Shown in pieces: positions 3,946 to 56,303 of a stretch of DNA of 60,177 nucleotides; positions within the stretch are counted from its first letter, which is position 1; the number at the start of each line of letters is the position of its first letter. A model generated the notes under the pieces. The model saw only the letters and a program-made list of their open reading frames with translations, had not been told where the DNA came from and searched no databases. The stretch is from Clostridia bacterium. Its GTDB lineage: Bacteria > Bacillota > Clostridia > Oscillospirales > Acutalibacteraceae. The translations under genes were made by a program, and so were the position numbers. The stretch lies in contig JAFQKF010000024.1 in the NCBI GenBank assembly GCA_017397105.1, positions 1 through 60,177 of the forward strand, in the 5' to 3' direction.

Positions 3946-3949
3946 ACAC

Positions 3950-6177: not shown

Positions 6178-6209
6178 AAAGAACACTCCTTTTTATTTCT
6201 TCACCGATT

Positions 6210-39329: not shown

Positions 39330-39369
39330 TTCTAATTCATCTCCGGACAGTGTTAAAAAATCGGTATTT

Positions 39370-39398
39370 ATGGTATCACAGGAGCTTGTTTCTTTCAA
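39370..39398 (-). promoter_or_regulatory. sigma-A promoter of the CLC gene
   Basis: Minus strand: TTGAAA (39393-39398), 17-base spacer, TACCAT (39370-39375), placed 41 bases before the TTG start. The leader is too short for a fluoride riboswitch. Confidence 0.65.
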
Positions 39399-39466
39399 TC
39401 GTAAAGCTGACGAAAAATGCGGTAAAAATGCAAAAAAACATCGGCATTTTGACCGATTATGACAGA

Positions 39467-39495
39467 TTGACATTATTATAATAAGGTGTTAAAAT
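39467..39495 (+). promoter_or_regulatory. sigma-A promoter of the 18-gene hydrogenase operon
   Basis: TTGACA (39467-39472), 17-base spacer, TAAAAT (39490-39495), 59 bases before hypA. No other promoter or terminator is apparent until 54941. Confidence 0.85.
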
Positions 39496-39553
39496 AACAA
39501 CACAGCCGCTGTCATCAACGACCGTGGCTTTTTGATGTTTTTTGGAGGCGATT

Positions 39554-39919
39554 ATGCACGAAACGGCGCTTACGCAAAATCTGATAAACATAGCCTGCAG
39601 GGCTCTTGAGGGTAAGGGTGTTACAAAAGTGAACAGCGTTACCTTGTGCGTGGGTGCTTTGTCGGGTGTGCTTTACGATGCTATGGAGTTTGCTTTTGAT
39701 GCAATGAAGCAGGGCACCGTGCTTGAAACCGCCGACCTTGACTTTGAAGAATTGCCTGTAACGGCAAGGTGCAGGGATTGCGCCTACGAATATAATCCCG
39801 TCGGGTTTCCGTATATCTGCCCCGTGTGCGGCGGAAGATATTTTGAAATAATCGGCGGAGAGGAAGTTTATATAAAAAACATTGACTGTATCGGAGATGA
39901 TGACGTTGTCACAGATTAA
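39554..39919 (+). CDS. hypA: hydrogenase nickel-insertion protein HypA
   Basis: A 121-residue metallochaperone that delivers Ni2+ with HypB to the [NiFe] large subunit. It begins MHETALTQNL with the nickel-binding His 2, and has the structural zinc site CRDCAYEY...CPVCGG (about residues 73-95). The ATG at 39554 follows GGAGG; an in-frame start 12 bases earlier overlaps that ribosome site and would bury His 2, which must be near the N-terminus. First gene of the operon; overlaps hypB by about 23 bases. Confidence 0.95.
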   Translation: MHETALTQNLINIACRALEGKGVTKVNSVTLCVGALSGVLYDAMEFAFDAMKQGTVLETADLDFEELPVTARCRDCAYEYNPVGFPYICPVCGGRYFEIIGGEEVYIKNIDCIGDDDVVTD

Positions 39920-40565
39920 AGTTAATACGGATTTGAAAGCGCTTAACAATGAAATTGCGGCGCAGAATAAAGAGAAGCTCCATTCCTGCGGTATTCTCAC
40001 CGTTGACGTGCTGGGTTCTCCCGGCTCAGGCAAAACAACCTTGCTTGAAAATATCCTTCCCGAGCTTGCGGCCAAGTGCCGTGTGGCGGTAATCGAGGGT
40101 GACCTTGCAACCGAGAACGATGCAAGGAGAATTGAAAAAACAGGCGTTAAGGCTGTTCAGATTAATACAAACGGCGGCTGTCATCTTGATGCTAAAATGA
40201 TTGAACGCCAGTTTGAAAAAATCGACCTTGAGAATACCGACGTGCTTGTTATTGAAAACGTTGGCAATCTCGTATGCCCCGTATCGTTTGCGCTGGGCGA
40301 GGATTTGAGAATAGTTGTGCTCAGCACCGCCGAGGGCGAGGATAAGCCTCTCAAGTATCCCACCGCAATGCTTAAAACGGATGCGGTTGTCGTTTCAAAA
40401 ACGGATATTGCAGAATACGTTTGCGTAAGCACTGATAAGCTTATCGGAAATATCGGAACGGTGAATCCCGACGTAAAGATTTTCACCGCCGGCAAAACGG
40501 ACGGTGAATACCGTGCTGAAGGTCTTGTTGAGTATATTCTTGAAGCAAGGAAAAATCTGAAATGA
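39897..40565 (+). CDS. hypB: hydrogenase/urease nickel-incorporation GTPase HypB
   Basis: A 222-residue GTPase. Motifs: VDVLGSPGSGKTTLLE (P-loop), VIEGDLATENDA, CHLDAKMI (metal site Cys-His), VIENVGNLVCP and VVVSKTDIAEY. It lacks the His-rich and CxxCGC N-terminal nickel-storage regions seen in some HypB proteins. The start is uncertain: ATG at 39897 or 39900 (GGAG only 0-3 bases away) or TTG at 39906 with GGAG nine bases upstream; all lie inside the hypA 3' end. Confidence 0.93.
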   Translation: MMTLSQIKVNTDLKALNNEIAAQNKEKLHSCGILTVDVLGSPGSGKTTLLENILPELAAKCRVAVIEGDLATENDARRIEKTGVKAVQINTNGGCHLDAKMIERQFEKIDLENTDVLVIENVGNLVCPVSFALGEDLRIVVLSTAEGEDKPLKYPTAMLKTDAVVVSKTDIAEYVCVSTDKLIGNIGTVNPDVKIFTAGKTDGEYRAEGLVEYILEARKNLK

Positions 40566-42787
40566 TGCCTGTAAGACGGGAAATCAGAATACGCGGTACC
40601 GTTCAGGGTGTCGGATTCAGACCTTTTGTGTTCAACTGCGCAAAAGAATTCGGGTTAAGCGGTTTCATTGCAAACACTCCTCACGGAGTGGAGATTCAGG
40701 TGCAGGGCAGGGAAACTGAGATTGACGGGTTTGTGAAAAAAATCCGAGTCTGTCCGCCTCCTGCATCTCGGATTGAAGAAATCGCTGTAAAAGAGATTGA
40801 AACTGTTGAAGAAAGCGGATTCTTTATAAGACCGAGCATTGACGGGAGCGCCGATACGTTTGTATCGCCCGATATCGGAACGTGCAAAGCGTGCTTTGAG
40901 GAGATAAGCAATCCCCACAGCAGAAGATACGCCTACGCTTTTACAAACTGCACTTCCTGCGGTCCGAGGTTTTCGATGATTGAAGCCGTACCGTATGACC
41001 GTAAGAATACAACTATGAGCGGCTTTGAGATGTGCGGCAAGTGCAGGGAAGAATATGAAAACGTTGAAGACAGACGCTTTCACGCCGAGCCTGTTGCGTG
41101 TGCTGATTGCGGGCCCGAGCTTGAATTTGTTGCGGGGTCAGAGGTTTATTCCGATGCGCTTAAGGCTTTTAAAGATTTTGTTTCACGGGGCAAAACCGTT
41201 GCGGTCAAGGGTCTCGGCGGTTATCATCTTGCATGCGATGCGTTTAATGAAAACGCCGTATCCCGTCTGAGGGCGCGCAAGCACCGCTTTGATAAACCGT
41301 TTGCCGTTATGGTAAAGACCGTTGAGCAGGCAGAAAAGCTCTGCGTCATAGATGATACGGAAAAGAAGCTTCTCCAAAGCCCTGCAAGGCCGATAGTCCT
41401 GCTGCGCAAGAGAGAGGACTGTGCCGTAGCACCGAGTGTTGCGCCTCAGAATAACCGTTTAGGCGTGATGCTTGCGTACACTCCGCTTCATTATCTGCTT
41501 ATGGACGGATTCGATGCGCTTGTTATGACGAGCGCAAATCTCAGCGATGAGCCCACCGTATTTGCGGATGAAGATGCGCTGAGGCTTGAAAGCGTTGCCG
41601 ATGCATTTCTCAGGCATAACAGAAGAATATGCCGTAGGGTGGATGACAGCGTTTGTGCCGTGGTTAACGGCAAGGTAAGGATTATAAGGAGGGCGAGGGG
41701 GTACGCTCCCGAGCCGTTATATATAGGCGCAGGCAAGGGGGACTTGCTTGCCTGCGGAGCTCAGCAGAAAAATACGTTCTGCCTGCTTCGCAACGGTTAC
41801 GCCTTTGTTTCGGGTCACATGGGTGACCTTGACGAAGAGTCTGCCGAAAAAAGCTATAAGAAAGAAATCGAAAGCTTTAAAAATCTTTTCTCGGCAAAGC
41901 CTGAGCTTGCGGTGTGCGATATGCATCCCGATTACGTTTCTGCAAGATTCGCTTTTGCTTCGGGTTTTCCCGTAAAACAGATTCAGCACCATAAGGCTCA
42001 TTTTATCAGCGTGCTTGCCGAGCACTCAGTGTTGGATGAAGACGTTCTGGGTTTCATTTTTGATGGCACCGGACTTGGTGAGGATATGAAAATATGGGGC
42101 GGAGAGATGTTCCTCGGCTCTGCCCGTTCGTGCAAAAGAGTCGGCCATCTGCGTGAGTTTCACCTTGCAGGAGCTCAGGCCGCAATCAACGAGCCGTGGA
42201 GATGCGCCGTTGCTGTGGCAGAGCAGGCAGAAAAGGGGAGTGCAGTCAGACTCTTTGATAAAGCGGAAATTATTCTGCGCAGTATCGAAGCGGGTATCAA
42301 CAGCCCCGAAACCTCGTCTATGGGAAGGCTGTTTGATGCAGTTTGCGCAATAGCAGGTGTCTGCACCGAGGTGACCTATGAGGGTCAGGCGGCAATTCTC
42401 CTTGAACAGATTGCCGATGAAAGCGCAGAGGGTGAATACCGCTTTGATATCTGTGAAGAGAAATCTCAGCTTATATTCGATTGGCGCAATCTTGTAAGAC
42501 GCGCGGTTGAGGACAGATTGTCCGGTGTTGGCGCAGGGGTTATATCAATGCGTTTTCACAGGGCTGTTATCAATCTCATAACGCAGTGCGCCGATATTGT
42601 GTACAGAAAATACAACATTAAAAAAATCGCCCTTTCAGGCGGATGCTTTCAGAATTTCATTCTGCTTGAAAATGCCGAAAACATTCTGACTCGCAACGGA
42701 TTTGAAGTTTATTCAAACGAGCGTATACCCGTAAACGACGGCGGTATTTCCTTCGGTCAGGCGGCAGCGGCGGTTTATTCGGAGTGA
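40562..42787 (+). CDS. hypF: carbamoyltransferase HypF
   Basis: A 741-residue enzyme that converts carbamoyl phosphate into the thiocarboxamide on HypE, the source of the CN ligands of the NiFe site. Domains: acylphosphatase (RGTVQGVGFRPFVF, 11-24), two zinc fingers (CKACFEE...CTSCGPR and CGKCREEY...CADCGPE, about 109-185), YrdC-like (about 200-380; KGLGGYHLACDA) and Kae1-like (about 395-741; HHKAHFISVLAEH and ALSGGCFQN). Full length. ATG overlaps the hypB stop (ATGA). Confidence 0.97.
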   Translation: MMPVRREIRIRGTVQGVGFRPFVFNCAKEFGLSGFIANTPHGVEIQVQGRETEIDGFVKKIRVCPPPASRIEEIAVKEIETVEESGFFIRPSIDGSADTFVSPDIGTCKACFEEISNPHSRRYAYAFTNCTSCGPRFSMIEAVPYDRKNTTMSGFEMCGKCREEYENVEDRRFHAEPVACADCGPELEFVAGSEVYSDALKAFKDFVSRGKTVAVKGLGGYHLACDAFNENAVSRLRARKHRFDKPFAVMVKTVEQAEKLCVIDDTEKKLLQSPARPIVLLRKREDCAVAPSVAPQNNRLGVMLAYTPLHYLLMDGFDALVMTSANLSDEPTVFADEDALRLESVADAFLRHNRRICRRVDDSVCAVVNGKVRIIRRARGYAPEPLYIGAGKGDLLACGAQQKNTFCLLRNGYAFVSGHMGDLDEESAEKSYKKEIESFKNLFSAKPELAVCDMHPDYVSARFAFASGFPVKQIQHHKAHFISVLAEHSVLDEDVLGFIFDGTGLGEDMKIWGGEMFLGSARSCKRVGHLREFHLAGAQAAINEPWRCAVAVAEQAEKGSAVRLFDKAEIILRSIEAGINSPETSSMGRLFDAVCAIAGVCTEVTYEGQAAILLEQIADESAEGEYRFDICEEKSQLIFDWRNLVRRAVEDRLSGVGAGVISMRFHRAVINLITQCADIVYRKYNIKKIALSGGCFQNFILLENAENILTRNGFEVYSNERIPVNDGGISFGQAAAAVYSE

Positions 42788-42791
42788 TATT

Positions 42792-43010
42792 ATGTGCCTT
42801 GCAATGCCGGGTAAAATAATAAAAATTGAAGATTCGCAGGCTGTTATCGATTACGGTGCGGTTACAACCCGTGCGGATTTGAGGGTAAAGCCTGAGGCGA
42901 AGGTCGGGGATACCGTGCTGGTGCACGCAGGCTTTGTTATTGAGATTGTTTCGCCCGAATCGGCGCAAGAGATTGAAATGCTTGTAAAAGAAACTATGGG
43001 TGAAGCGTGA
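42792..43010 (+). CDS. hypC: hydrogenase assembly chaperone HypC
   Basis: A 72-residue chaperone starting MCLAMPGKIIKIE, with the invariant Cys 2 that carries the Fe(CN)2CO unit between HypD and the large subunit. Four bases after hypF and overlapping hypD by four bases. Confidence 0.96.
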   Translation: MCLAMPGKIIKIEDSQAVIDYGAVTTRADLRVKPEAKVGDTVLVHAGFVIEIVSPESAQEIEMLVKETMGEA

Positions 43011-44065
43011 TGAGAGCGGCGGAAATAATAGAGGCTATTCACAAAAAAGCCAAGGGGCTCGGTAATATAGCAATTATGGAAGTGTGCGGCACTCACACAA
43101 ACGAGCTTCACCGCCACGCCATTCCTCAGGCATTGCCCGACAATATCCGCCTTGTTTCCGGGCCGGGATGCCCTGTGTGCGTAACGGCGCAGAGTGATAT
43201 CCATGCGGCGCTCAGCATTGCAGGGATGAAAGATACCGTGCTTTGCTGCTACGGCGATATGCTCAGGGTGCCATGCGGTGATACGAGTCTGCTTGGTATG
43301 AAGAGTGATGGCGCTGACGTGAGAAGCGTTGTGAGTGCACTTGAGGCGCTTGAGATTGCGCGTGAGAATCCGTTGAAGCAGGTTGTGTTTTTTGCCGTAG
43401 GATTTGAAACAACAACTCCTCACACGGCGGTGCTTATTGAGGATGCGGCGAGAGAAAACGTCGGAAATCTCAGCGTGCTCTGTTCCCACAAAACGATGCC
43501 TGCCGCCGTCACCGCTTTACTTTCGGGTAAATCGGGAATTGATGCTTTGATGTGCCCCGGTCACGTTGCGTGCATTACGGGCAGAAAGGGCTTCGATTTT
43601 GTGCCCGAAAAGCTGAAAATCCCTGCCGCTATAGCGGGATTTGAGGCTTGCGATATGCTTTTTGCATTGCTTAAGATATGCGATATGTTGGAAAAATCTC
43701 AGCTTGAGTGCTTTAATGCCTACACAAGAGCCGTAAGCGAAAACGGCAATGATCCCGCACTCAGGCTTACTTATAAAATTTTTGAAGAAAGCGAATGCGA
43801 GTGGAGGGGGCTCGGAAGAATTACTGAAAGCGGACTCGTTATACGTGATGAGTATTCCTTCTTTGATGCACGCCGCCGTTTTGAAATTCCTGATTTTACA
43901 GAGAAAAACGCAAGAATGTGCATCTGCTCAAAAATCCTCAGGGGAGAAGCGCTTCCCTCAGACTGCCCGAGCTTTGCATCCGTGTGCACTCCCGAAACCC
44001 CGTTGGGTGCGTGCATGGTATCCTCGGAGGGCAGCTGCGCCGCTTACTACAAGTATGAGAGGTGA
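43007..44065 (+). CDS. hypD: hydrogenase maturation protein HypD
   Basis: A 352-residue [4Fe-4S] protein on which the iron centre and its CN ligands are assembled. Signatures: MEVCGTHTNELHRHAIPQAL, SGPGCPVCVT (redox Cys pair), GFETTTPHTA and MCPGHVACITG; cluster ligands lie in the C-terminal part (CICSKILRGEALPSDCPSF). Starts at GTGATG with the ATG overlapping hypC's stop. Confidence 0.96.
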   Translation: MMRAAEIIEAIHKKAKGLGNIAIMEVCGTHTNELHRHAIPQALPDNIRLVSGPGCPVCVTAQSDIHAALSIAGMKDTVLCCYGDMLRVPCGDTSLLGMKSDGADVRSVVSALEALEIARENPLKQVVFFAVGFETTTPHTAVLIEDAARENVGNLSVLCSHKTMPAAVTALLSGKSGIDALMCPGHVACITGRKGFDFVPEKLKIPAAIAGFEACDMLFALLKICDMLEKSQLECFNAYTRAVSENGNDPALRLTYKIFEESECEWRGLGRITESGLVIRDEYSFFDARRRFEIPDFTEKNARMCICSKILRGEALPSDCPSFASVCTPETPLGACMVSSEGSCAAYYKYER

Positions 44066-44070
44066 ATTCT

Positions 44071-45069
44071 ATGCAGGAAAAAATAACACTCGCCCACGGC
44101 TCGGGCGGTGAGCTTTACAGGGAAATGGTCAATGAAGTTTTCCTGCCTGCTTATTCAAACGAAATACTCTGCGAGCTTGGTGACAGTGCCGTATGCACCG
44201 CAGGTGAAAGAATCGCTTTCACTACGGACGGATTTGTGGTCAATCCCATATTCTTCCCGGGCGGAGATATCGGCAGGCTGTGCGTGTGCGGTACTGTAAA
44301 TGACCTTGCGGTGAGCGGTGCCGTGCCGCAGTATCTGAGCGTATCAATGATAATTGAAGCAGGGTTTGAGACCGAAAAGCTTCGATGTATATGCAAAAGC
44401 ATTGCCGATACCGCATCTGAAGCCGGTGTCAGGATTGTTACGGGTGATACCAAGGTGGTGGAAGGCAACAAGGCTGACGGTATATATATAACAACTTCAG
44501 GCGTCGGCGTTTTTACGGCTGACAGAAAGCCACTCGGGCAGAAGGTAGTGCAGGGTGACGTGATAATCTGCTCTGCTCCCGTTGCATCGCACGGTGTTGC
44601 CGTTACGGTTGCGAGGTCGGGTATGGATTTTTCGCCCGTGCCTTGCAGTGACGTAAAGCCGCTTTCGGGTGTGGTTGATGCTTTGCTTTCGAGCGGAGCC
44701 GAGGTGCACGCAATGCGTGACCCTACACGCGGAGGCGTTGCCGCGACTCTTTGCGAATGGGCAAGGGACGGTGTTGATATAACCGTTGATTTAAAAAATG
44801 TACCCGTTGAAGCTTCGGTCAGTGAAATATGCGCAGTGCTCGGGCTTGACCCGTTACAGCTTGCAAACGAGGGTGTGTTGCTCGCAAGTGTTGCAAAAAA
44901 AGACTGTGCAAAAGCGCTTGAAGCGCTGAGAAATTATCAGTATTCAACCTCTGCGGCGGTTATTGCGGAGGTTGAGAGCGGAAATTCCGAAGTGTGGGGA
45001 ATTACCGACATAGGAACAAAAAGAAGAATTCTTATGCCGCGCGGGGAAGTTCTGCCCCGTATTTGTTGA
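44071..45069 (+). CDS. hypE: hydrogenase maturation dehydratase HypE
   Basis: A 332-residue PurM-like enzyme that dehydrates its own C-terminal thiocarboxamide to thiocyanate. N-terminal LAHGSGGELYREM; ATP-site GDTKVVEGNKADGIY and MRDPTRGGVAATLCEWA; and the invariant C-terminal ending PRIC with the modified Cys. The start is the ATG at 44071, eight bases after GAGAGGTG; a GTG nine bases earlier overlaps the hypD stop. Confidence 0.96.
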   Translation: MQEKITLAHGSGGELYREMVNEVFLPAYSNEILCELGDSAVCTAGERIAFTTDGFVVNPIFFPGGDIGRLCVCGTVNDLAVSGAVPQYLSVSMIIEAGFETEKLRCICKSIADTASEAGVRIVTGDTKVVEGNKADGIYITTSGVGVFTADRKPLGQKVVQGDVIICSAPVASHGVAVTVARSGMDFSPVPCSDVKPLSGVVDALLSSGAEVHAMRDPTRGGVAATLCEWARDGVDITVDLKNVPVEASVSEICAVLGLDPLQLANEGVLLASVAKKDCAKALEALRNYQYSTSAAVIAEVESGNSEVWGITDIGTKRRILMPRGEVLPRIC

Positions 45070-45081
45070 GGTGGTAAAAAT

Positions 45082-46491: not shown

Positions 46492-48372
46492 ATGAATGCG
46501 GTTTTTGAATTACTTTCAACAGGGCACAACCTTTTGCTTTTCACGGTTGGTCTGCCCGTGATTTTTGCCTTTGCCGTATGGGCGGCAGGTAAAAAGGATA
46601 TCCTGCGTACTGCAGTTACCGCTGTGGCAGGGATAGTGAATCTTATATTCGGCTGCGCATTGTATTTTGCAAAAGCAGAGATTGCCGATACCGTTAAAAT
46701 GACAGGCTTCGGGCTTGATATAGATATTCTGACGGACGAATTCTCTGCTCTGTTTATATTCCTTACAGCAGCGGCGTTTTCCGTTATAGGCATTTATTGC
46801 TCCGCATGGCTTAACAGCAAAAAATACGCAGGGCTGTTTATGTTCTATCTGTTTATAAGCCTTGCAATGATTAACGGCGCTTTTATGTGCGACAGTCTGG
46901 GTGCGATGCTCTTTTTCTGGGAGGGCTTGCTTTGTACTCTCTTCGGAATGCTGCTTATAAATAACCGTGAGAATTATAAATCCGCAGTCAAAGCGCTCAC
47001 ACTTTCGGGTATTGCGGATTTGCTTATGATGCTCGGTATAATCATAACCGCTTACATCGGCGGCAGTTCAAATATGAGCGGACTTTCAGGTCTTGAGGTC
47101 AAGGGTGCGGGAATTGCAGGCTTTGCTTGCCTTATGCTCGGTGCGCTCGGTAAATCGGGCTGTATGCCTTTCCATTCATGGATTCCCGAGGCTGCAGGAA
47201 GTGCACCTGCGGCATTTATGGCGGCATTCCCCGGCGCTCTTGAGAAATTGCTCGGAATATACCTTGGTGTAAGAGTTATGACTCAGATTTATTCTGTTGA
47301 GTCGGGAAGTGCGGCAAGTATTGCGGTTATGACTCTCGGAGCGGTAACGCTTGTTTGTGCGGTTGCAATGGCGCTCATTCAGAAGGATATGAAAAAGCTT
47401 TTGTCCTATCATGCCGTAAGTCAGGTAGGTTATATGGTGCTCGGCCTCGGCTCGGCATTGCCTGTAGGCATAGCAGGTGCACTTTTCCATATGCTCAACA
47501 ACGTTATTTATAAGAGCGCTCTCTTTATGATAGCGGGCTTTATGGAGAAAAAGCTCGGCACCACCGATTTGAGAAGCTTTTCGGGCCTTTTCAAAAAAAT
47601 GCCCGTTACCGCCGTATGCTTTACGGTTTGCGGTTTTTCAATTGCAGGCGTGCCCGGATTCAACGGCTTTTTCTCAAAGGAGCTTATCTTTGATGCGGCT
47701 CTGGAATCACATTGTAAACTCAATTATCTTTTCTACGCGCTCGCGCTTGTCGGTGCATTTATGACCGCCGTATCCTTCCTTAAAATGGGCAGGGGCGCAT
47801 TCTCAGGCAAAGAGCAGCTGCCCGAAAAGGTTAAGACTGCCGATGAAAAAGGCTTGCTTCTCAAGCTTCCGATTATTGTTATGTCGGCGCTTTGCGTTGT
47901 TTTCGGAATTTTCAACAGTGTTGCGGTTGACGGTTGGTTTGCCTGCGCAACGGGAGCTGAGGAAAAGCTCGGCGGCTGGCCGCACTCTGCGCTTCTTGTA
48001 ATAATTTCAGTATGTGTGCTTTTGCTTGCACTTGCGGACCATATTTACGGCTGCAAAAAAACAGGCAAGCCCATAAATGCGGCAGACCATATCCACTACG
48101 CTCCCGTGCTCAAGCAGATTTATTCCGCAGCGGAAAAGGGAAGATTTGACCCTTACAACTGGATAAACGGTATAGCTCAGGGCTTCTCGTTTGTATGTGT
48201 AAAGATTGAGCAGGGTGTCAGCTTTGTTTATGACAGAGCAATTCCCGGTATTGTTAAAAAGACGGGTGATATGCTTCACCGTTCGGATAACGGCTCGCTT
48301 TCAAGATATCTTGCAGGCGTGCTTCTCGGTGTGGCTGTTGCGGCTGTGATTCTTTTGTCAAAAGTTCTTTAA
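46492..48372 (+). CDS. antiporter-like membrane subunit 2 of the hydrogenase (NuoL/HyfB-type)
   Basis: A 626-residue protein, longest of the three antiporter-like subunits. The core has LFFWEGLLCTLFGMLLI (Glu) and MPFHSWIPEAAGSAPAAF with LEKLLGIYLGVR (Lys). Beyond helix 14 a C-terminal extension of about 130 residues contains FDPYNWINGIAQGFSFV and a last transmembrane helix, as in HyfB- and NuoL-like proteins where it forms the lateral arm. Directly abuts the previous stop codon. Confidence 0.9.
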   Translation: MNAVFELLSTGHNLLLFTVGLPVIFAFAVWAAGKKDILRTAVTAVAGIVNLIFGCALYFAKAEIADTVKMTGFGLDIDILTDEFSALFIFLTAAAFSVIGIYCSAWLNSKKYAGLFMFYLFISLAMINGAFMCDSLGAMLFFWEGLLCTLFGMLLINNRENYKSAVKALTLSGIADLLMMLGIIITAYIGGSSNMSGLSGLEVKGAGIAGFACLMLGALGKSGCMPFHSWIPEAAGSAPAAFMAAFPGALEKLLGIYLGVRVMTQIYSVESGSAASIAVMTLGAVTLVCAVAMALIQKDMKKLLSYHAVSQVGYMVLGLGSALPVGIAGALFHMLNNVIYKSALFMIAGFMEKKLGTTDLRSFSGLFKKMPVTAVCFTVCGFSIAGVPGFNGFFSKELIFDAALESHCKLNYLFYALALVGAFMTAVSFLKMGRGAFSGKEQLPEKVKTADEKGLLLKLPIIVMSALCVVFGIFNSVAVDGWFACATGAEEKLGGWPHSALLVIISVCVLLLALADHIYGCKKTGKPINAADHIHYAPVLKQIYSAAEKGRFDPYNWINGIAQGFSFVCVKIEQGVSFVYDRAIPGIVKKTGDMLHRSDNGSLSRYLAGVLLGVAVAAVILLSKVL

Positions 48373-48384
48373 GGAGGGGGAAAT

Positions 48385-49845
48385 ATGAATATGTTAAACT
48401 TAACCGTTCATGCCATGCTGGCGCTTCCCCTTGTGGTGCTTGCGGCAAATAATCTGCTTGCAAAGCAGACTGCCAGAAAAATCGCTTTATACGTGTGCGC
48501 AGCCGTTGCATTTTTTCAGATAGCGTCAAGCGTTACACTTTTCGTTATGTACACCCGTTACGGGATAACGCATTACGATTTCAACATTTTTGATCCCGGT
48601 CAGGTAAGCGCGGATTATTTCTCGGTAAACCGCCTTGATTTATTCCTTATGGTTTGCATAGGAATTGTGGTTTTTGTTTCCGTAATGCTTGCGTTGGAAA
48701 CCATCAAAGACCATAAACGCTCTTACGTTAATCTGCTTATGTGCCTGCTTCTCGGAATGAACGGCATGGTAATGGCGACTGACCTTTTCAGCCTTTACGT
48801 GTTCCTTGAAATCGTAGGAATTACAAGCTTTGTTATGATTGCAATGTTCCGTTCAAAGGTCGGGCTTGAGGGCTCGTTCAAATATCTTGTTGTATCCTCG
48901 CTCGGCATTGTTCTTCTGCTCAGCGGTCTTGCGCTGATTTTTATGCAGACGGGTACACTCGACTTTAAAGCAATCGGTGAAAGCTTGCTTGATACGCAGG
49001 ACAGTTCACGCAGAGCTCTTACTTACTCGGCGGTTGTTCTTATGATTTCGGGCTTTGCCGTAAAAGCAGGTGCAGTGCCTTTCCACAGCTGGCTGCCCGA
49101 TGCTCACCAGAGTGCGGACACCGCAGTATCCGTATTACTCAGCGGCATAGTTATCAAAATCGCAGGTATTTACGGTCTTATAGTTGTGCTTGACCTTTTC
49201 GGTTCACTCGAAGCGGTAAGGATTATTTATCAGGTTATCGGCCTTGTTTCAACAATAACGGGTGCGGTTCTTGCCGCAAGGCAGCATCATTTCAAGCGCA
49301 TTGCCGCTTATTCGAGCGTAAGCCAGATGGGATATATTATTCTTGCTCTCAGCTCAGGCACTACCCTCGGTGTTGTTGGTGCGGCGGCTCATATTTTCAG
49401 CCACGCAATATTCAAATCAACCCTTTTCTCAAATGCGGCGGCTATTCACGAGGAGGTCGGCGTGCTTGACGTAACCAAGCTCGGAGGTCTTGAAAAGAAG
49501 ATGCCCATAACGGCTTTTTCATCCGTTATTGCATTTTTATCAACCGCCGGTGTTCCTCCGTTCTGCGGATTCTGGAGCAAGCTTCTCATAGTAATTGCTC
49601 TTTGGAAAAGCGGCGATACTGTGTGGGCAGGAGCGGCTCTTGCGGCAAGTATTTTCACTGCCGTTTATTTCCTGCGTCTTCAGCGCAAGGTTTTCTTCGG
49701 CAAGCTTGCCGACGGTATGCAGGACGTCCGCGAGGCAAAAAATTCTATCGGATTTATTGAGGCTGCCCTTACTGCGGTAACCGTGGGAGCGGGCTTGCTC
49801 TTCCCGTTTGCGCTGCAGTATCTTCAGACAGCAGGCATTATTTAA
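48385..49845 (+). CDS. antiporter-like membrane subunit 3 of the hydrogenase (NuoN/MrpD-type)
   Basis: A 486-residue protein with about 14 transmembrane helices. Shows LYVFLEIVGITSFVMIAMF (Glu), VPFHSWLPDAHQSADTAVSV, GIVIKIAGIYGLIVV (Lys) and SVSQMGYIILALSSG. Closest in appearance to NuoN/MrpD. ATG after AAGGAGGGGG. A third antiporter-like unit gives this hydrogenase the same number as bacterial complex I. Confidence 0.9.
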   Translation: MNMLNLTVHAMLALPLVVLAANNLLAKQTARKIALYVCAAVAFFQIASSVTLFVMYTRYGITHYDFNIFDPGQVSADYFSVNRLDLFLMVCIGIVVFVSVMLALETIKDHKRSYVNLLMCLLLGMNGMVMATDLFSLYVFLEIVGITSFVMIAMFRSKVGLEGSFKYLVVSSLGIVLLLSGLALIFMQTGTLDFKAIGESLLDTQDSSRRALTYSAVVLMISGFAVKAGAVPFHSWLPDAHQSADTAVSVLLSGIVIKIAGIYGLIVVLDLFGSLEAVRIIYQVIGLVSTITGAVLAARQHHFKRIAAYSSVSQMGYIILALSSGTTLGVVGAAAHIFSHAIFKSTLFSNAAAIHEEVGVLDVTKLGGLEKKMPITAFSSVIAFLSTAGVPPFCGFWSKLLIVIALWKSGDTVWAGAALAASIFTAVYFLRLQRKVFFGKLADGMQDVREAKNSIGFIEAALTAVTVGAGLLFPFALQYLQTAGII

Positions 49846-49863
49846 AGAAAGGAGCGTAACTCA

Positions 49864-50358
49864 ATGGAAAATATTATAATCTACGTTTCTCTTGCTGCGC
49901 TCCTTGTTTGCGGAGTGCTTGCGGTAATGCTCAGGAGTATAATCAAGGACGCAATCTGCCTTGCGGCGGCAAGTGCGGCGCTTGCGATAATTATGTATAC
50001 TCTCGGCGCACCCTGGGCGGCGCTTTTTGAGGTGTCCGTTTGTGCAGGTCTTATAACGGTAATATTTATCAGCGGAATCAGCCTTTCGCACGATACAAAG
50101 GCTGAGGTAAGGCGTGAATATGACGATAAACGCAGAATGGGAGTTTTACCCGTTGTGCTTGTGGTCGCAGGAATCGTTATGATTGGGGCAGGCGCCGCAA
50201 TTCACTTTGAGATGCCTGTTGCGCAGAGACTTGTTCAGGATTTCAGAGAGGTTTTCTGGAACAGCAGGCAGGCTGATATCTGGGGTCAGATAATCGTTAT
50301 GCTTACGGGCGGCACCGCCATTTCCGTTCTTATAAAGGAGGAGAAGAAAAAGTCATGA
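49864..50358 (+). CDS. NuoJ/MbhD-like membrane subunit
   Basis: A 164-residue protein with about four transmembrane helices. The stretch IKDAICLAAASAALAIIMY and APWAALFEVSVCAGLITV resemble the helix 2-3 region of ND6/NuoJ and MbhD, which contains the functionally important bulge in complex I. A charged loop (EVRREYDDKRRMG) and a fourth helix follow. ATG after AAAGGAGCG. Overlaps the NuoK-like gene by four bases. Confidence 0.75.
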   Translation: MENIIIYVSLAALLVCGVLAVMLRSIIKDAICLAAASAALAIIMYTLGAPWAALFEVSVCAGLITVIFISGISLSHDTKAEVRREYDDKRRMGVLPVVLVVAGIVMIGAGAAIHFEMPVAQRLVQDFREVFWNSRQADIWGQIIVMLTGGTAISVLIKEEKKKS

Positions 50359-50660
50359 ATATGGAATTCGCTTTTCTGCTTGCAGGGGTATTGCTTATCC
50401 TTGCAGGGTGCTTTTGCCTAATAAGAACTTACCACTTGCTTAAAATCATAATCGGTATGGAGCTTTCAATGAAGGCTGTTACTTTGCTGTTTGTGATTGC
50501 AGGGCGTATCAACGGCAATATGGAGCTTTCTCAGGCGTTTATTATTACGATTATAGTTATAGAGGTTGTTATAACACTTGTTGCATCAGGTGTTGCACTT
50601 GATTTGTATAAGAAATACGGCAACCTTGACGTGCGCAATCTGCGCAACTTGAGAGGATAG
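50355..50660 (+). CDS. NuoK/MrpC-like membrane subunit
   Basis: A 101-residue, three-helix protein with the NuoK pattern: LIRTYHLLKIIIGMELSMKAVTL with a membrane-embedded Glu in IGMELS, and IITIIVIEVVITLVASGVAL with the second conserved Glu in VIEVV. Both glutamates are essential for ion coupling in complex I. ATG overlaps the upstream stop. Confidence 0.9.
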   Translation: MNMEFAFLLAGVLLILAGCFCLIRTYHLLKIIIGMELSMKAVTLLFVIAGRINGNMELSQAFIITIIVIEVVITLVASGVALDLYKKYGNLDVRNLRNLRG

Positions 50661-50668
50661 GTGAGAAT

Positions 50669-50995
50669 ATGAGTATAAAAGAAGTGCTTTATTCTCCGGC
50701 AGTTGTTTTCTTTCTTATTACTGCTTTGATTTCAGTGTTTGCTCTGTTTCTTTCAAGATACAGTGCAAAGGGCAAAAAAAGCAAAAGAACCCTTGATTCG
50801 TATGCCTGCGGCCAGCAGGGTTTCAAGGAATACGTAAACCCCGACTACAGCCAGTTTTTTACCTTTGCATTTGTTTTTACGGTGATGCACGTTCTTACAA
50901 TGGTAATTGCAACCGCTCCCGAAAAAATGACGGCAATGCCCATACTTTATATCCTTGCGGGTTTGTATGTGCTGGTGATTGTTCTTAAGAGGTGA
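50669..50995 (+). CDS. NuoA/ND3-like membrane subunit
   Basis: A 108-residue three-helix protein. Residues 38-60 read SKRTLDSYACGQQGFKEYVNP, matching the ND3/NuoA loop that normally reads YECG and sits near the quinone cavity; the next helix (FFTFAFVFTVMHVLTMVIA) aligns with NuoA helix 2. NuoA homologues are usual in complex I but rarely noted in [NiFe] hydrogenases. Starts after GATAGGTGAGA. The assignment rests on the Cys loop, size and gene position. Confidence 0.7.
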   Translation: MSIKEVLYSPAVVFFLITALISVFALFLSRYSAKGKKSKRTLDSYACGQQGFKEYVNPDYSQFFTFAFVFTVMHVLTMVIATAPEKMTAMPILYILAGLYVLVIVLKR

Positions 50996-51002
50996 ATTGG
51001 AT

Positions 51003-51452
51003 ATGGATTTAATAAGAAAAGCTTCGCAATGGGCGAGCGGAAAATCACCGTGGATTCTGCATTTCAATGCAGGCGCCTGCAACGGCTGTGATATTGAGGT
51101 TGTTGACTGTGTTACGCCGAGATATGACCTTGAACGCTTCGGCGTTGTAAAGCAGGGCAGTCCGAGGCACGCCGACGTGCTTATATGCACGGGCGCCGTA
51201 ACTCTTCAGACAAGGGACAGATTAAAGCAGATTTACGAGCAGATGCCCGAGCCCAAGCGTGTTATAGCTGTTGGTACCTGCGCCTGCACGGGCGGCGTTT
51301 TTGACGGTTGCTACTGCGTTACTGGCGGAATTGATACGGTTATACCCGTTGACGTGTACGTGCCGGGTTGCGCCGTAAGACCTGATGAAATAATAAGTGC
51401 GGTTGAGCGTGCACTTTCTCTTAAAACAGACGGGGAGGGCGATAAAAAATGA
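51003..51452 (+). CDS. hydrogenase small subunit, NuoB-like, with proximal [4Fe-4S] cluster
   Basis: A 149-residue group 4 hydrogenase small subunit. Cluster ligands are in NAGACNGCDIEV, VGTCACTGGVF and YVPGCAVRPDE, giving the proximal cluster next to the NiFe site. The chosen ATG at 51003 has GAGGTG nine bases upstream; an earlier in-frame start at 50979 lies inside the NuoA-like gene. Short form without extra ferredoxin domains, as expected for Ech/Hyc-like enzymes. Overlaps the NuoC-like gene by four bases. Confidence 0.94.
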   Translation: MDLIRKASQWASGKSPWILHFNAGACNGCDIEVVDCVTPRYDLERFGVVKQGSPRHADVLICTGAVTLQTRDRLKQIYEQMPEPKRVIAVGTCACTGGVFDGCYCVTGGIDTVIPVDVYVPGCAVRPDEIISAVERALSLKTDGEGDKK

Positions 51453-51955
51453 GCAATGAAGAAAGCAAGGTTTTGCAGATAATATCGAATTTCCCCAATC
51501 TTGACGGAAGAATCCGTCAGATTGCTCCCAAAAGGATTTTTACCGACCCTCTTGAAAGCGGCGAATTTCATCAGCTTGTGTCGTACATTCACGATGAAAT
51601 GGGCTTCTTCAGAGCGCACCACGCTGTAGGTGTTGACGACGGTGAGAATCTCGGATTTATCTATATCTTTTCCGATGAAGATAACACAATCCTTGCGGCA
51701 AAGCAGACCGTTCCCAAGGAAAATCCCGAAATAGAATCGCTCAACAAGCTCTATCCCTCTCTGCTTTTGCACGAGCTTGAGCTTGCCGACCTTTTCGGCG
51801 CCGTGATTTCGGGCTTGCCCGACGTACCTCATTATCCGTTGCCCGACGGTTGGCCCGAGGGCAGCTATCCCATGAGGAAAGAATGGAAGCCTGAGTATTT
51901 CAATAAAGAAACAATGACTTACGAGCCGCCCGAGGAGGTGCAGAAGAATGGCTGA
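51449..51955 (+). CDS. NuoC-like 30-kDa subunit of the hydrogenase
   Basis: A 168-residue soluble subunit with the family signature HELELADLFGAVISG followed by YPLPDGWPEGSYPMRKEW. It packs on the large subunit. In many group 4 enzymes NuoC is fused to NuoD; here it is separate, overlapping the large-subunit gene by eight bases. Confidence 0.93.
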   Translation: MSNEESKVLQIISNFPNLDGRIRQIAPKRIFTDPLESGEFHQLVSYIHDEMGFFRAHHAVGVDDGENLGFIYIFSDEDNTILAAKQTVPKENPEIESLNKLYPSLLLHELELADLFGAVISGLPDVPHYPLPDGWPEGSYPMRKEWKPEYFNKETMTYEPPEEVQKNG

Positions 51956-53165
51956 CGATAACAAAGTTATAATCCCGATAGGACCTCAGCACCCGTCGCT
52001 TGATGAGCCTGCAAGCTTCACCGTAACTCTCAGCGGTGAAAGGGTTGACAACGTAGTTATAGGTATCGGTTACAATCACCGAGGCCTCGAAAAAGCTTGC
52101 GAAAGCAGAACCTACGTGCAGGATTTATATATAGTTGAGCGTGTCTGCGGCATTTGCTCCCATTCTCACACAAGCGCATTCTGTATGGGTGTTGAACAGC
52201 TTGCAGGCGTTACCGTGCCTGACAGAGCGGAGTACATCAGAGCAATAGTTGCCGAACTTGAGAGGCTTCACAGCCATCTACTCTGGCTCGGAGTTGCAGG
52301 GCATGAAATAGGCTTTGATACTCTGTTTATGTACACGTGGAGGGACCGTGAAAAGGTGCTTGATCTTCTTGCGGCAATAGGCGGAAACAGAATCAACTAT
52401 TCGGTAAATACCTTCGGCGGAGTCCGCAGAGATCTGGATGAAAGCATTTTTGCCAAAATTACCGCAACTCTCAACGAGCTTGAAAAGCAGATAAATTATT
52501 ACCTTGAGCTTGCGCAGACAGAGCTTACTCTTAAAGCAAGACTTTCGGGTATCGGTTGCCTTTCAAAGGAGGATGCGCTTAAATTCGGCGCAACGGGTCC
52601 CGTTCTTCGTGCGGCAGGAGTTGCTCAGGATATAAGAACGGCTGAACCCTACGGCGCATATAAGAATTTTGAGGTGAACGTTATTACTCATACCGCTGCC
52701 GACGTTTTCGGACGAACTGCAGTCAGAATTCTTGAAATGCTTGAAAGCATCAGGATTATCCGCCATTGTATCAAGGAAATGCCTGAGGGTGCAATTCTTG
52801 CAAAGGTGCCCAGAAGAATCCCTGAGGGAGAGGTTATTGTAAGAATGGAAGCCCCCAGAGGTGAAAACATTCATTATATCCGCTCAAACGGTACCGATAA
52901 GCCTGACAGAATCCGTGTACGTGCCCCGTCTGAGGCCAACTGGCACGGTATGCAGCATATGCTTAAGGGTGAATATCTTGCGGACGTGCCCATAAGCATT
53001 GCCGCTATTGACCCCTGCTATTCCTGCACGGACAGAGCAATCACCGTAAATTCCGACGGCACCCGTAAGGTTACCGACTGGCAGTCAATACGCAAGTACG
53101 GTATTGATTGGTATAAAAAACGCGGGCTTGATATGGCTGATATAAGGCTTGAAAGAGGGGTGTGA
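51948..53165 (+). CDS. [NiFe]-hydrogenase large subunit, group 4 (NuoD-like)
   Basis: A 405-residue catalytic subunit. Both nickel-iron motifs are intact: RVCGICSHSHTSAF (about residues 64-77; C-x-x-C-x-x-x-H) and IDPCYSCTDR (about 355-364). NuoD of true complex I has lost these Cys residues, so this subunit should bind the NiFe(CN)2CO centre and reduce protons or oxidise H2. Forty-two residues follow Arg of DPCYSCTDR; as in HycE-type enzymes this tail is expected to be removed by the maturation protease encoded three genes downstream. GRRI-like conserved stretches (KVPRRIPEGEVIVRMEAPRG) are present. ATG after GAGGTG. Confidence 0.95.
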   Translation: MADDNKVIIPIGPQHPSLDEPASFTVTLSGERVDNVVIGIGYNHRGLEKACESRTYVQDLYIVERVCGICSHSHTSAFCMGVEQLAGVTVPDRAEYIRAIVAELERLHSHLLWLGVAGHEIGFDTLFMYTWRDREKVLDLLAAIGGNRINYSVNTFGGVRRDLDESIFAKITATLNELEKQINYYLELAQTELTLKARLSGIGCLSKEDALKFGATGPVLRAAGVAQDIRTAEPYGAYKNFEVNVITHTAADVFGRTAVRILEMLESIRIIRHCIKEMPEGAILAKVPRRIPEGEVIVRMEAPRGENIHYIRSNGTDKPDRIRVRAPSEANWHGMQHMLKGEYLADVPISIAAIDPCYSCTDRAITVNSDGTRKVTDWQSIRKYGIDWYKKRGLDMADIRLERGV

Positions 53166-53166
53166 A

Positions 53167-54108
53167 ATGGAAGTTTTACAGATGCTTTTTAAAGTGCTTT
53201 TGTTCCCCGGCTTTCTCTTTCTCACATCCTACGCCTTTGCGGCGGAATATATAGACCGTAAACTGCACGCAAGGATGCAGAACCGTAAAGGACCCAAGTG
53301 GTATATTCCTTTTGCGGATTTCTTCAAGCTTATAGGCAAGCAGACTATTATCCACGACGATGCTCACGCAGGAATTATAAAGGCGATGCCCGTGGTATCC
53401 CTCGCAGGCGTTGCAACGGCGTTCATTTATATTCCCGTTGTCGGTTCGTCCGCTGTTTTTTCGTTTGAGGGCGATATAATCATCGTTTTGTATTTCCTCT
53501 CCTTGCCCGTGCTTACTCAGTTCCTTGCAGGCTGGTATTCAAGAAGTCTTTACGCAACAATAGGTGCTTCAAGAGTAATAACCCAGATGTTTGCATATGA
53601 GGTGCCGCTGTTTATGTGCCTGCTTGCACCTTCGCTTATTGCAAATACCTGGTCTGTTTCGGGCATAACTCAGTATTATTCCGAGCATCCGCTTTATGCT
53701 CTTATCAATCTGCCTGCTTTTGCGGTTGCGCTTATAACTGTTCAGAGTAAGCTTTCAAAAGCTCCGTTTGATGCCCCCGAGGCGGAAACGGAAATCGTTT
53801 CAGGCCCTTACGTTGAATACACGGGTAGACCCCTTGCGTTTTTCAGAATGTCGGCAGACTGCGAAGAGGTTGTTCTTATTTCTCTTGTGAGCGCGATATT
53901 CCTTCCGTTCCTGAGTGGAAATGCAGTGATTGACGTAATCCTTTATTTTGTTAAAACCCTTGCGATTCTGTTTGTTCTCACTTTGATGAGAACCGTTACC
54001 GCAAGGCTCAGAGTTAACCAGACCGTTACACTCTGCTGGAGATATCTTGTGCCTGCGGCACTTTTGCAGATGATTGTCAATCTTATTGTGAGGGGGTGGC
54101 TTGCTTGA
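53167..54108 (+). CDS. NuoH-like membrane anchor subunit of the hydrogenase
   Basis: A 313-residue protein of about eight transmembrane helices that links the soluble and membrane arms. Conserved loops: RKLHARMQNRKGPKWYIPFADFF (shown in part), KAPFDAPEAETEIVSGPYVEYTG (key acidic residues) and LRVNQTVTLCWRYLVP. ATG at 53167 after GAGGGGTG; an in-frame TTG 18 bases earlier lies within the large-subunit gene. Confidence 0.94.
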   Translation: MEVLQMLFKVLLFPGFLFLTSYAFAAEYIDRKLHARMQNRKGPKWYIPFADFFKLIGKQTIIHDDAHAGIIKAMPVVSLAGVATAFIYIPVVGSSAVFSFEGDIIIVLYFLSLPVLTQFLAGWYSRSLYATIGASRVITQMFAYEVPLFMCLLAPSLIANTWSVSGITQYYSEHPLYALINLPAFAVALITVQSKLSKAPFDAPEAETEIVSGPYVEYTGRPLAFFRMSADCEEVVLISLVSAIFLPFLSGNAVIDVILYFVKTLAILFVLTLMRTVTARLRVNQTVTLCWRYLVPAALLQMIVNLIVRGWLA

Positions 54109-54464
54109 AAAAAATCAACGTGGCAGGCAGAATTGCCGCCGAAGCGCTTAAGAATCTTTTCAGAAAGCCTTCCTCGGAAACGGAGCAGTCTGCTGCCGTA
54201 CCCGACGGATACAGGGGGCTTATCGTTTACAATCCCGAAAACTGCATAGCCTGCGGACTTTGCGTGAGGGATTGCCCTGCAGGCGCAATAAAGATTGTTA
54301 ACGAAGGCACCAAAGAAGATAAAAAGCTCAACGCATCAATTGATACGGGCAGATGCATTTTCTGCTGCCAGTGCGTGGATTCCTGCATGAAGGGCTGCCT
54401 TTCTGTTTCGGATAATTACAATCTCAACGCAGTAAGCCGTGAAGAGATGGTGAAGAAGCTGTGA
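54105..54464 (+). CDS. NuoI-like two-[4Fe-4S] ferredoxin subunit of the hydrogenase
   Basis: A 119-residue electron-entry subunit with two cluster motifs, CIACGLCVRDCPAG and CIFCCQCVDSCMKG. The second has Lys in place of the usual Pro after the last ligand. The start is taken as TTG at 54105, eight bases after AGGGGG and overlapping the NuoH stop; a GTG at 54096 would lie inside the ribosome site. Electrons would come from reduced ferredoxin, because no NuoE/F/G genes are in this operon. Confidence 0.92.
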   Translation: MKKINVAGRIAAEALKNLFRKPSSETEQSAAVPDGYRGLIVYNPENCIACGLCVRDCPAGAIKIVNEGTKEDKKLNASIDTGRCIFCCQCVDSCMKGCLSVSDNYNLNAVSREEMVKKL

Positions 54465-54937
54465 ATATACCTGAAAGAATAGCCCCTTATTTCAGCAAAG
54501 GTAAAAAGTATGCGGTTATGGGGGTCGGCTCCGAGCTTCGTAACGATGATGCGGCAGGGATGATATTTGCCTGTGAGCTTGAATCGCTTATACAGAGTGA
54601 AAATCTTCTTGTGATAGGCGGCGGCTCTGCACCCGAAAATTTTACGGGAGTCATAAAGAAATTCAGACCCGATATCCTTTTTATCGTTGATGCTGCGTTT
54701 ATGGGACTTGAAACCGGAGAAATAAGCCTGCTTGATTCAAAACAGATTGAAGGAATTTCTTTTTCAACCCATATGCTTCCCTTGCCGCTTATGCTTGATT
54801 ATCTTAAAACCGAAGCGGGCTGTGAAACGGTGATAATCGGTATTCAGCCTGAAAATACGGGGCAGGGTCTTGATGTGTGCGAGGCCGTAAGGCGCAGCGC
54901 GCTTGAACTGGCGCAGATTTTTTCGTCATTATTGTAA
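54461..54937 (+). CDS. hydrogenase maturation endopeptidase (HycI/HyaD type)
   Basis: A 158-residue nickel-sensing protease. Signature sequence: VMGVGSELRNDDAAGM (first metal ligand in the N-terminal G-x-G-N/S region), FIVDAAFMG (acidic ligand), STHMLPLPLML (His ligand) and IGIQPENTG. It cleaves the C-terminal tail of the large subunit after nickel insertion. GTG start overlapping the NuoI stop (GTGA). Last gene of the operon. Confidence 0.94.
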   Translation: MNIPERIAPYFSKGKKYAVMGVGSELRNDDAAGMIFACELESLIQSENLLVIGGGSAPENFTGVIKKFRPDILFIVDAAFMGLETGEISLLDSKQIEGISFSTHMLPLPLMLDYLKTEAGCETVIIGIQPENTGQGLDVCEAVRRSALELAQIFSSLL

Positions 54938-54940
54938 TAA

Positions 54941-54982
54941 AACAGGTCAGAGCGGAGATCTTCCGTACTGGCCTGTTTTTTG
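54941..54982 (+). terminator. intrinsic terminator of the hydrogenase operon
   Basis: Arms AACAGGTCAG / CTGGCCTGTT with an inner CGGA/TCCG, followed by TTTTTG; four bases after the protease stop codon. Confidence 0.9.
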
Positions 54983-56273: not shown

Positions 56274-56303
56274 AGGTGTCACTCCCTGATTTATAATGTA
56301 AAC

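Follow-up and report, generated by a model that had tools for sequence, protein, structure and literature searches.

A bacterial operon for a predicted energy-converting [NiFe] hydrogenase that has each of the eleven core subunit types of complex I

Organization of the operon

The DNA analyzed here is a stretch of 60,177 nucleotides (the window; contig JAFQKF010000024.1 of assembly GCA_017397105.1) from a Clostridia bacterium of the family Acutalibacteraceae. It contains 18 contiguous genes, all open and on the + strand (39554–54937), that encode a predicted [NiFe] hydrogenase shaped like complex I together with its maturation proteins (Table 1). An earlier note, made from the letters alone, had proposed that these genes form one operon, and this description holds. 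Every gene could be assigned to a family by profile, and the frames overlap or nearly touch, with junctions of -38 to +18 bases in the open reading frame list. All eleven core subunit types of complex I are present, and among the 18 genes, all of which were assigned, there is no NuoE, NuoF or NuoG. The family profile assignments likewise reveal no MrpE/F/G/B-like gene among the 18.

HypA, HypB, HypF, HypC, HypD, HypE and the HycI-type protease score above their NCBIfam cut-offs, whereas the two-cluster NuoI-like ferredoxin scores below. The matches above Pfam cut-offs are three Proton_antipo_M domains, Oxidored_q3 (NuoJ), Oxidored_q2 (NuoK), Oxidored_q6 (NuoB), Complex1_30kDa (NuoC), Complex1_49kDa (NuoD), and NADHdh (NuoH). 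For NuoB and NuoH, the ATG codons at 51003 and 53167 are the likelier starts and are preferred over those listed in Table 1.

One promoter precedes the genes and one terminator follows them, again as proposed. A site of the quality of the promoter occurs in 6 of 2000 dinucleotide shuffles of the same 154-base stretch (+ strand only); over the whole region promoter-like sites are in no excess over chance (24 seen, 22.4 expected). None of 200 shuffles folds as well as the terminator hairpin, which is absent from the output of a simple consensus scan of the region. A search of the window with Rfam at gathering thresholds gave no matches and hence no sign of a nickel riboswitch. Chance open reading frames were rejected as an explanation of the operon, because the gene order recurs in relatives.

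Table 1. Features of the operon and of other parts of the window
Feature	Coordinates	Strand	Evidence and remarks
Promoter, sigma-70-type, TTGACA-17-TAAAAT, extended -10	39467..39495	+	11/12 consensus bases
hypA, nickel chaperone	39554..39919	+	TIGR00100 91.9 bits, cut-off 88.1; GGAGG 5 nt before ATG
hypB	39882..40565	+	TIGR00073 239 bits
hypF	40562..42787	+	TIGR00143 780 bits
hypC	42792..43010	+	TIGR00074 58 bits, cut-off 48
hypD	43007..44065	+	TIGR00075 409 bits
hypE	44062..45069	+	TIGR02124 382 bits
Antiporter-like subunit 1, 469 aa	45082..46491	+	PF00361 225 bits
Antiporter-like subunit 2, 626 aa, NuoL-like	46492..48372	+	PF00361 159 bits
Antiporter-like subunit 3, 486 aa	48385..49845	+	PF00361 223 bits
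NuoJ homologue	49864..50358	+	PF00499 40 bits, cut-off 33.2
NuoK homologue	50355..50660	+	PF00420 61 bits; Glu36 equivalent present
NuoA homologue, full length	50669..50995	+	Profile match to ND3/NuoA; His74 at the place of E. coli Asp79
NuoB homologue, hydrogenase small subunit	50979..51452	+	PF01058 108 bits; CNGCDIE motif
NuoC homologue	51449..51955	+	PF00329 58 bits
NuoD homologue, [NiFe] large subunit	51948..53165	+	PF00346 and PF00374; L1/L2 motifs; MbhL/HycE alignments
NuoH homologue	53149..54108	+	PF00146 233 bits; acids kept
NuoI homologue, two [4Fe-4S] motifs	54096..54464	+	PRK08348 82 bits and TIGR01971 72 bits, both below cut-off
HycI-type maturation protease	54461..54937	+	TIGR00142 124 bits, cut-off 119
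Intrinsic terminator, hairpin then U tract	54939..54979	+	-24.4 kcal/mol, z -5.3
ClC-type channel/exchanger gene	38067..39473	-	Divergent, adjoins the operon promoter; matches under family cut-offs
NuoE-like, NuoF-like (extra ferredoxin domain), and 677-aa 2Fe-2S and GltD-like protein, in a row	1912..6186	-	
alpha-L-rhamnosidase	9112..11418	-	
alpha-L-rhamnosidase	17621..20062	+	
HydF, [FeFe] hydrogenase maturation GTPase	20148..21350	+	551 bits, cut-off 326
IolB-like protein	55500..56282	-	87 bits, below cut-off 205

The NiFe site and its maturation

The large subunit, the NuoD homologue, retains both CxxC motifs that the earlier note had pointed out. They read CGICSHSH (L1) and DPCYSCTDR (L2), all four NiFe cysteines are kept, and 45 residues follow the last of them. 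The best matches among solved structures are MbhL of Pyrococcus furiosus (317 bits) and HycE (264 bits). The MbhL chain in the structure 6cfw stops at an arginine that aligns with Arg363 of the window protein, which leaves a tail of 42 residues (364–405) that is predicted to be cleaved off. The last gene of the operon provides a dedicated protease above the TIGR00142 cut-off, which presumably cuts NuoD after Arg363. The Ech-like large subunits examined carry no such tail and end three residues past the last L2 cysteine.

Glu20 of the window NuoD aligns with Glu21 of MbhL, where Nqo4 has a histidine; MbhL Glu21 has been described as a key residue (PMC7684303, PMC11228991). The small subunit contains the motif CNGCDIE, in contrast to the CC of E. 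coli NuoB. By sequence, the window enzyme is a hydrogenase, because the four NiFe cysteines, the catalytic glutamate and the cleavable tail are all kept.

NuoA and the membrane arm

Taken alone, the NuoA sequence reaches 21.6 bits, just below the Pfam cut-off of 23.3. A profile built from 16 NuoA sequences uses positions 14–106 of its 109 in matches to the ND3/NuoA chains of complex I structures (best E value 2.3e-6), and 13 of the 16 alignment members match Oxidored_q4 at E values up to 0.1. Against MbhI of 6cfw, the profile matches at positions 9–55 only, covering helix 1 and loop 1 (E value 0.015), and against six MbhI-like proteins only columns 13–55 are aligned (probability 73%, E value 3e-5). 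MbhI of the membrane-bound hydrogenase (MBH) has been matched to ND3 (PMC10396290, PMC7684303). Loop 1 and the preceding helix are described as common to MbhI and NuoA, with the later helices least similar; in complex I, these later helices put the peripheral module at a different site (PMC7684303). Because the profile coverage agrees with these accounts, we regard NuoA as partial in MBH and complete in the window enzyme. A total lack of NuoA in Mbh, considered at first, was given up after the comparison with MbhI. The earlier note had stated that group 4 hydrogenases generally lack NuoA. This is right for MBH in so far as a full NuoA is meant, but MbhI is a partial one, and the archaeal Hfo has all eleven subunits.

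MbhI-like genes are located between antiporter and NuoB genes at the surveyed loci L056 (8722–9063), L128 (5829–6161), L129 (4162–4503), L203 (10641–11030), and L206 (8087–8455). Their products have helix 1 and an FxSG loop in common with NuoA and are divergent beyond.

The residue at the position of E. coli NuoA Asp79 was counted in 94 rows scoring above 30 bits, some of the Hfo rows being the same gene twice. Histidine is found in 57 of 58 rows of the window, Chloroflexi and euryarchaeal types together with L156, the exception being L123 with glutamate. The Hfo rows have aspartate (30 of 31) or histidine (1 of 31), two Asgard rows have glutamate, and two Nuo rows and one Fpo-like row have aspartate. 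Glu81 is kept in the two Nuo rows only.

In a six-way alignment of the antiporter-like subunits with E. coli NuoL, NuoM and NuoN, the residues Glu139, Lys163, Lys214, and Lys291 (subunit 1 numbering) are invariant. We take these to be the pumping residues of the class of the glutamate of transmembrane helix (TM) 5 and the lysine of TM7. Subunit 2 covers positions 30–610 of the 615-position NuoL model, although below its cut-off, and its C-terminal stretch aligns with the lateral helix HL and the last helix of E. coli NuoL. The lateral helix and the docking of the membrane arm are predictions from this alignment. Since NuoA is full, docking of the arm is expected to follow complex I and not MBH. 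NuoH keeps E157, D213, E216, E218, E220, and E228. Glu36 of NuoK is kept in the window and in 19 of 20 rows of its group, while this position is glutamine in 14 of 14 Chloroflexi rows and serine in 6 of 10 euryarchaeal rows.

Phylogenetic position

The trees are unrooted, their group names (Clostr, Firm2, Hfo etc.) were assigned in the present analysis, and the reference rows cover only some of the HydDB subgroups 4a–4i. The first large-subunit tree had 97 rows and the main tree 62. The 35 rows left out comprise four long branches (L202, L130, L109, L156) and 31 rows thinned by choice, either because they nearly duplicate others or, in some cases (L187 and L201 among them), because of an odd placement. 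Seven rows (L187, L201, L202, L156, L130, L143, L148) were restored to give a 69-row tree. A tree of NuoB, NuoD, NuoH and NuoI has 56 rows and 982 columns, with six rows lacking one or two subunits; five rows (L156, L187, L201, L202, L130) were later added to it. The NuoA label was given by type and not by sight to two of four Ech rows (L094, L096) and four of eight complex I rows (L132, L139, L140, L146), because these stretches are only about 4 kb long. L058 counts as Ech because it has no tail, though NuoJ and NuoK homologues are present.

In the main large-subunit tree, the 41 hydrogenases with an adjacent NuoA come together in a single group with 96/92 support; the NuoA is clear in 40 of them and weak (18.8 bits) in L055. 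The window enzyme lies inside this group together with Hfo, and apart from Ech and Hyc, from the Mbh rows, which form a group of their own (100/100), and from the complex I rows, which form a separate branch (100/100). With the seven rows restored, the group has 45 rows at 93/93 and complex I ceases to join it. The additional members are L156, which has NuoA, and L187, L201 and L130, which are without it; the NuoA label needs four changes in this tree. In the 62-row tree, the grouping of NuoA-bearing hydrogenases with complex I reaches only 64/8. There, joining the window clade to complex I is weakly rejected (p-AU 0.034), while Hfo with complex I (0.363) and Mbh with complex I (0.441) are compatible with the data.

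In the four-subunit tree, the 13 hydrogenases without a full NuoA split off at 100/99, and the opposite side holds 35 NuoA-bearing hydrogenases and the 8 complex I rows, with a single label change. When the five rows are added the split stays (97/99) with two changes: L130 and L202 fall on the NuoA-lacking side, L156 with Chloroflexi, and L187 and L201 among Hfo, an apparent loss. The 35 NuoA-bearing hydrogenases without complex I are not one group in this tree, although such a grouping is compatible with the data (p-AU 0.396), as is a position next to complex I for Hfo (0.467) or Asgard (0.312). Among quick single-gene trees, NuoH shows the split (SH-aLRT 99) and NuoD has it without support (18), whereas NuoB needs three changes and NuoI two, which means that two of the four are without the split. 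Overall, the NuoA split is suggestive.

The earlier note saw in the window enzyme a possible bridge between hydrogenases and complex I. The four-subunit tree bears this out in part, for the NuoA-bearing hydrogenases at large; the large subunit by itself lends it no support, and the test above disfavors the window branch as a direct bridge. Conceivably, though we lean somewhat against it, the hydrogenases with a full, three-helix NuoA, bacterial ones included, and complex I are one natural group apart from Mbh, Ech and Hyc. In that case the full NuoA, which determines the docking place of the membrane arm, would go back to a single origin that preceded both the loss of the NiFe site and the use of quinones. 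The window enzyme would then be a present-day bacterial representative in which Asp of NuoA has been exchanged for His. Our estimate is held down because complex I is not joined by the group when the large subunit is taken on its own, and because two rows without an adjacent NuoA fall inside the group.

Comparison with known systems

Loh 2021 (PMC7886697) described Hfo from Bathyarchaeia as a Fpo-like hydrogenase of 11 subunits, reported similar complexes for Methanomethylicus and Pyrodictium, and already regarded Hfo as closer to complex I than Mbh is. The undescribed subgroup suggested by the earlier note therefore does not stand, as the same eleven subunits are known from Hfo in that account. 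The window operon resembles Hfo as described there in its subunit types, its NiFe motifs, and the absence of NuoEFG/FpoFO and of an Mrp module, and its large subunit falls in the same group, also with the odd rows restored. It differs in being bacterial, in its gene order (ant-ant-ant-J-K-A-B-C-D-H-I-protease and not the Fpo order), in having hyp genes inside the operon, and in the NuoA histidine. NuoJ is one gene in the window and two in many archaeal loci. The Hfo rows used here were chosen by gene set from Bathyarchaeia-class and Thermoprotei genomes and are not the strains of Loh 2021. The window enzyme would work like Hfo, yet it is not Hfo in the strict sense, because it lacks the Fpo gene order.

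The MBH of P. furiosus (group 4d, 6cfw) has homologous core subunits, antiporters of the same family, and helix 1 and loop 1 of NuoA in MbhI. It has no full NuoA. An Mrp sodium module is described for it (PMC7886697), and its HL is reported to be short and to reach over a single pump, MbhH (PMC7684303). Complex I and Fpo share with the window enzyme the eleven core subunits, three pumps, a NuoL-like lateral helix and a full NuoA, but the Nuo/Fpo rows seen are without NiFe ligands or tail, and NuoEFG or FpoFO serve for input. The window enzyme neither belongs to the Nuo/Fpo branch nor has lost its NiFe ligands.

Ech (4e) and the formate hydrogenlyase FHL/Hyc (4a) have homologues of NuoB, NuoC, NuoD, NuoH and NuoI. 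Ech has six subunits, and an Ech-like cluster that was seen whole (L127) is without NuoA, NuoJ and NuoK; hypA/hypB lie beside 14 of 15 tail-less Ech-like loci. An identity with Ech was rejected, given the eleven subunits and the large-subunit tail of the window enzyme.

Asgard-labelled rows, which are not from the genomes of the published Asgard hydrogenase (PMC11291895), form a separate branch with another gene order; the published enzyme was modelled with a full HL helix. The same source describes group 4g as polyphyletic, and elsewhere it is called loosely clustered and of unknown function (PMC5037454); a 4g enzyme is mentioned in Endomicrobium (PMC11257099). In the accessible parts of the open-access literature, we recognized no description of a bacterial 11-subunit [NiFe] hydrogenase with NuoA.

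Relatives and their gene order

A scan of genome contigs yielded 63 loci, which with 20 further stretches and the window gave 84 loci surveyed with profiles, for the 18 operon families only. Bacillota, Elusimicrobia, Acidobacteria, Chloroflexi and several archaeal groups contribute to the 63 loci, besides a small number of others. Overlap filtering left a NuoA call in 63 of the 84 loci and removed those of L004 and L006, which have a NuoA too. A search for the same gene order, as the earlier note had advised, found it complete in 16 loci (Bacillota-type and three Elusimicrobia) and in part in 11 more, two Acidobacteria included, where a contig ends or one gene is uncalled. The order J-K-antiporters-A-B-C-D, a circular shift of nuoABCDHIJKLMN, occurs in 28 loci, A-B-C-D-H-I-J in 3, and other or truncated orders in 26. 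A complete hypABFCDE set lies immediately upstream in the window and L113; partial sets are found elsewhere, mostly at stretch ends. New here are bacterial members with another gene order in Bacillota and Elusimicrobia, and nearly so in Acidobacteria, as well as permuted relatives in Chloroflexi and archaea.

In a sample of the phylum, 75 of 398 genomes, that of the window included, have a match at 1e-90. Fourteen other genomes match at 52–68% identity, and all 14 have NuoA. Sixty match at 39–46%: 15 examined in short loci have no tail, 3 that were opened are Mrp-linked or HycE-like, and 42 were counted by match only. In a sample of the family, 7 of 60 genomes, again with that of the window, contain a 49-kDa-type subunit, which was not found in the one same-genus genome of that sample. 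The other six comprise two of the window type (L111, L112), one Ech-like (L127), and three known by match only. L111 and L112 branch outside the clade of the window and copies from other families, which suggests transfer.

Several loci are unusual. L010 (Elusimicrobia) has a gap of 4.7 kb between the NuoB and NuoC homologues of an otherwise window-type cluster. L050 and L207, about 17 kb apart, belong to one Asgard contig (G476:C2), which encodes a NuoA-bearing [NiFe] hydrogenase as well as a Nuo-like complex that has no NiFe motifs and whose large subunit is 549 amino acids long. L156 (G468:C11:95153-95881) is a second large subunit of a Chloroflexi genome, with DLCIAC at L2 and no tail, beside a NuoA; it groups with the Chloroflexi rows. 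L130 (7905–9662, from a same-phylum genome) is a HycE-sized large subunit in which a pattern search found neither NiFe motif, despite a protease and hypABF nearby. At L187 and L201, and also at L180 and L188 (class of a Bathyarchaeota genome), only NuoB, NuoD and NuoI homologues were called, and membrane subunits were not seen beside them. The position of L187 and L201 within the NuoA-bearing Hfo group perhaps reflects secondary loss or a split cluster.

Proposed function and alternatives

The gene set, the NiFe ligands, the catalytic Glu20, the 42-residue tail and the conserved pumping residues can be read from the sequence itself. From these, we consider it likely that this is an Hfo-like, energy-converting [NiFe] hydrogenase with a full NuoA, which forms H2 from reduced ferredoxin and pumps ions; its ferredoxin partner, direction, ion, stoichiometry and cleavage site we infer. 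Electrons would pass from reduced ferredoxin through the two NuoI clusters and the NuoB cluster to the NiFe site of NuoD, where protons would be reduced to H2. Loops of NuoA (TM1-2), NuoD (beta1-beta2), and NuoH (TM5-6) may relay the redox event to the membrane arm, and the three antiporter-like subunits would move H+ or Na+ outwards, tied together by the lateral helix that subunit 2 provides. HypABFCDE would assemble the NiFe site, and the protease would trim NuoD.

The genome of the organism (1.85 Mb, 76% complete) contains two POR domains, one [FeFe] hydrogenase domain, an Rnf/Nqr-type D subunit with an RnfC-like neighbour, and an ATP synthase alpha/beta-type pair. These domains make plausible a ferredoxin pool, whose electrons the enzyme, on the simplest view, would release as H2 while pumping ions. 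The sole [FeFe] hydrogenase domain found lies on a different contig from the HydF gene of Table 1.

Several points weigh against this proposal. Asp178, Asp223 and Glu241 of NuoH are replaced, Asp79 and Glu81 of NuoA are His and Leu, and no hydrogenase row, the window included, has an acid aligned with Glu72 of NuoK, although the window and 12 other tails displayed have one three residues earlier; coupling may therefore differ from that of complex I. Assuming that the step from ferredoxin to H2 yields about 0.2 V per electron, the pumping of four ions per H2 would be feasible only at a membrane potential below about 0.1 V. This bound disfavors four ions per H2 in the forward direction and would imply fewer ions pumped, operation at low potential, or the reverse direction. 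The 4g enzymes are described as uncharacterized (PMC5037454, PMC7886697), and a NuoE/NuoF pair on the same contig makes NADH or another donor possible.

The same enzyme might run in reverse, with H2 uptake reducing ferredoxin at the expense of the membrane potential, as proposed for Bathyarchaeia Hfo (PMC7886697). Three pumping subunits would drive such uphill electron flow strongly. In the genome, however, no CdhC-type acetyl-CoA synthase match exceeds the cut-off (23.4 bits, cut-off 24), a weak argument in a genome that is 76% complete, and the two POR domains fit a fermenter with surplus reduced ferredoxin; we judge this direction rather unlikely. The NuoE-like, NuoF-like and GltD-like module of Table 1 looks like an electron-bifurcating enzyme of the Bfu type (PMC9304861), and its docking on the hydrogenase would give a bifurcating complex comparable to the Mbh-Bfu clusters proposed for Dehalococcoides in that source. 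The two lie on one contig, but the module is 33 kb from the operon and on the opposite strand, and we give this arrangement little chance.

An Mbh-type (4d) enzyme with shuffled genes might be suspected from MbhL being the best solved-structure match of NuoD and from a weak match, under the cut-off, of NuoJ to MbhD. It was rejected as very improbable given the lack of MrpE/F/G/B-like genes among the 18, a full-length NuoA where MbhI matches only in helix 1 and loop 1, and the separate Mbh group in the tree. Scores on complex I models could also point to a complex I or Fpo that has diverged, uses a quinone-like compound as its acceptor and resembles a hydrogenase in appearance only: NuoD reaches 359 bits on the NADH-quinone NuoD model (cut-off 360), and NuoB passes the NuoB model. 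The four NiFe cysteines, catalytic glutamate, tail, protease and full Hyp set, together with the separate complex I branch, led us to reject such an enzyme as highly improbable.

Implications

The origin of complex I from hydrogenases is an old question, for which the usual stand-ins are Mbh, Ech and FHL, all without a full NuoA. The full-NuoA design has so far been described from archaea; the bacterial origin, the gene order and the NuoA histidine of the window enzyme are new. Its link to complex I was anticipated by Hfo, but the bacterial spread and the four-subunit tree make the question more testable. Since the enzyme is bacterial and comes with its own maturation set, the intermediate architecture could be examined by assay and cryo-electron microscopy, if the enzyme or a relative can be expressed. 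Its subunits could be annotated as NADH-quinone oxidoreductase, because several score on those models. Relatives of the window enzyme may help to explain how complex I arose, and in anaerobic bacteria the enzyme may be both a source of hydrogen and an ion pump.

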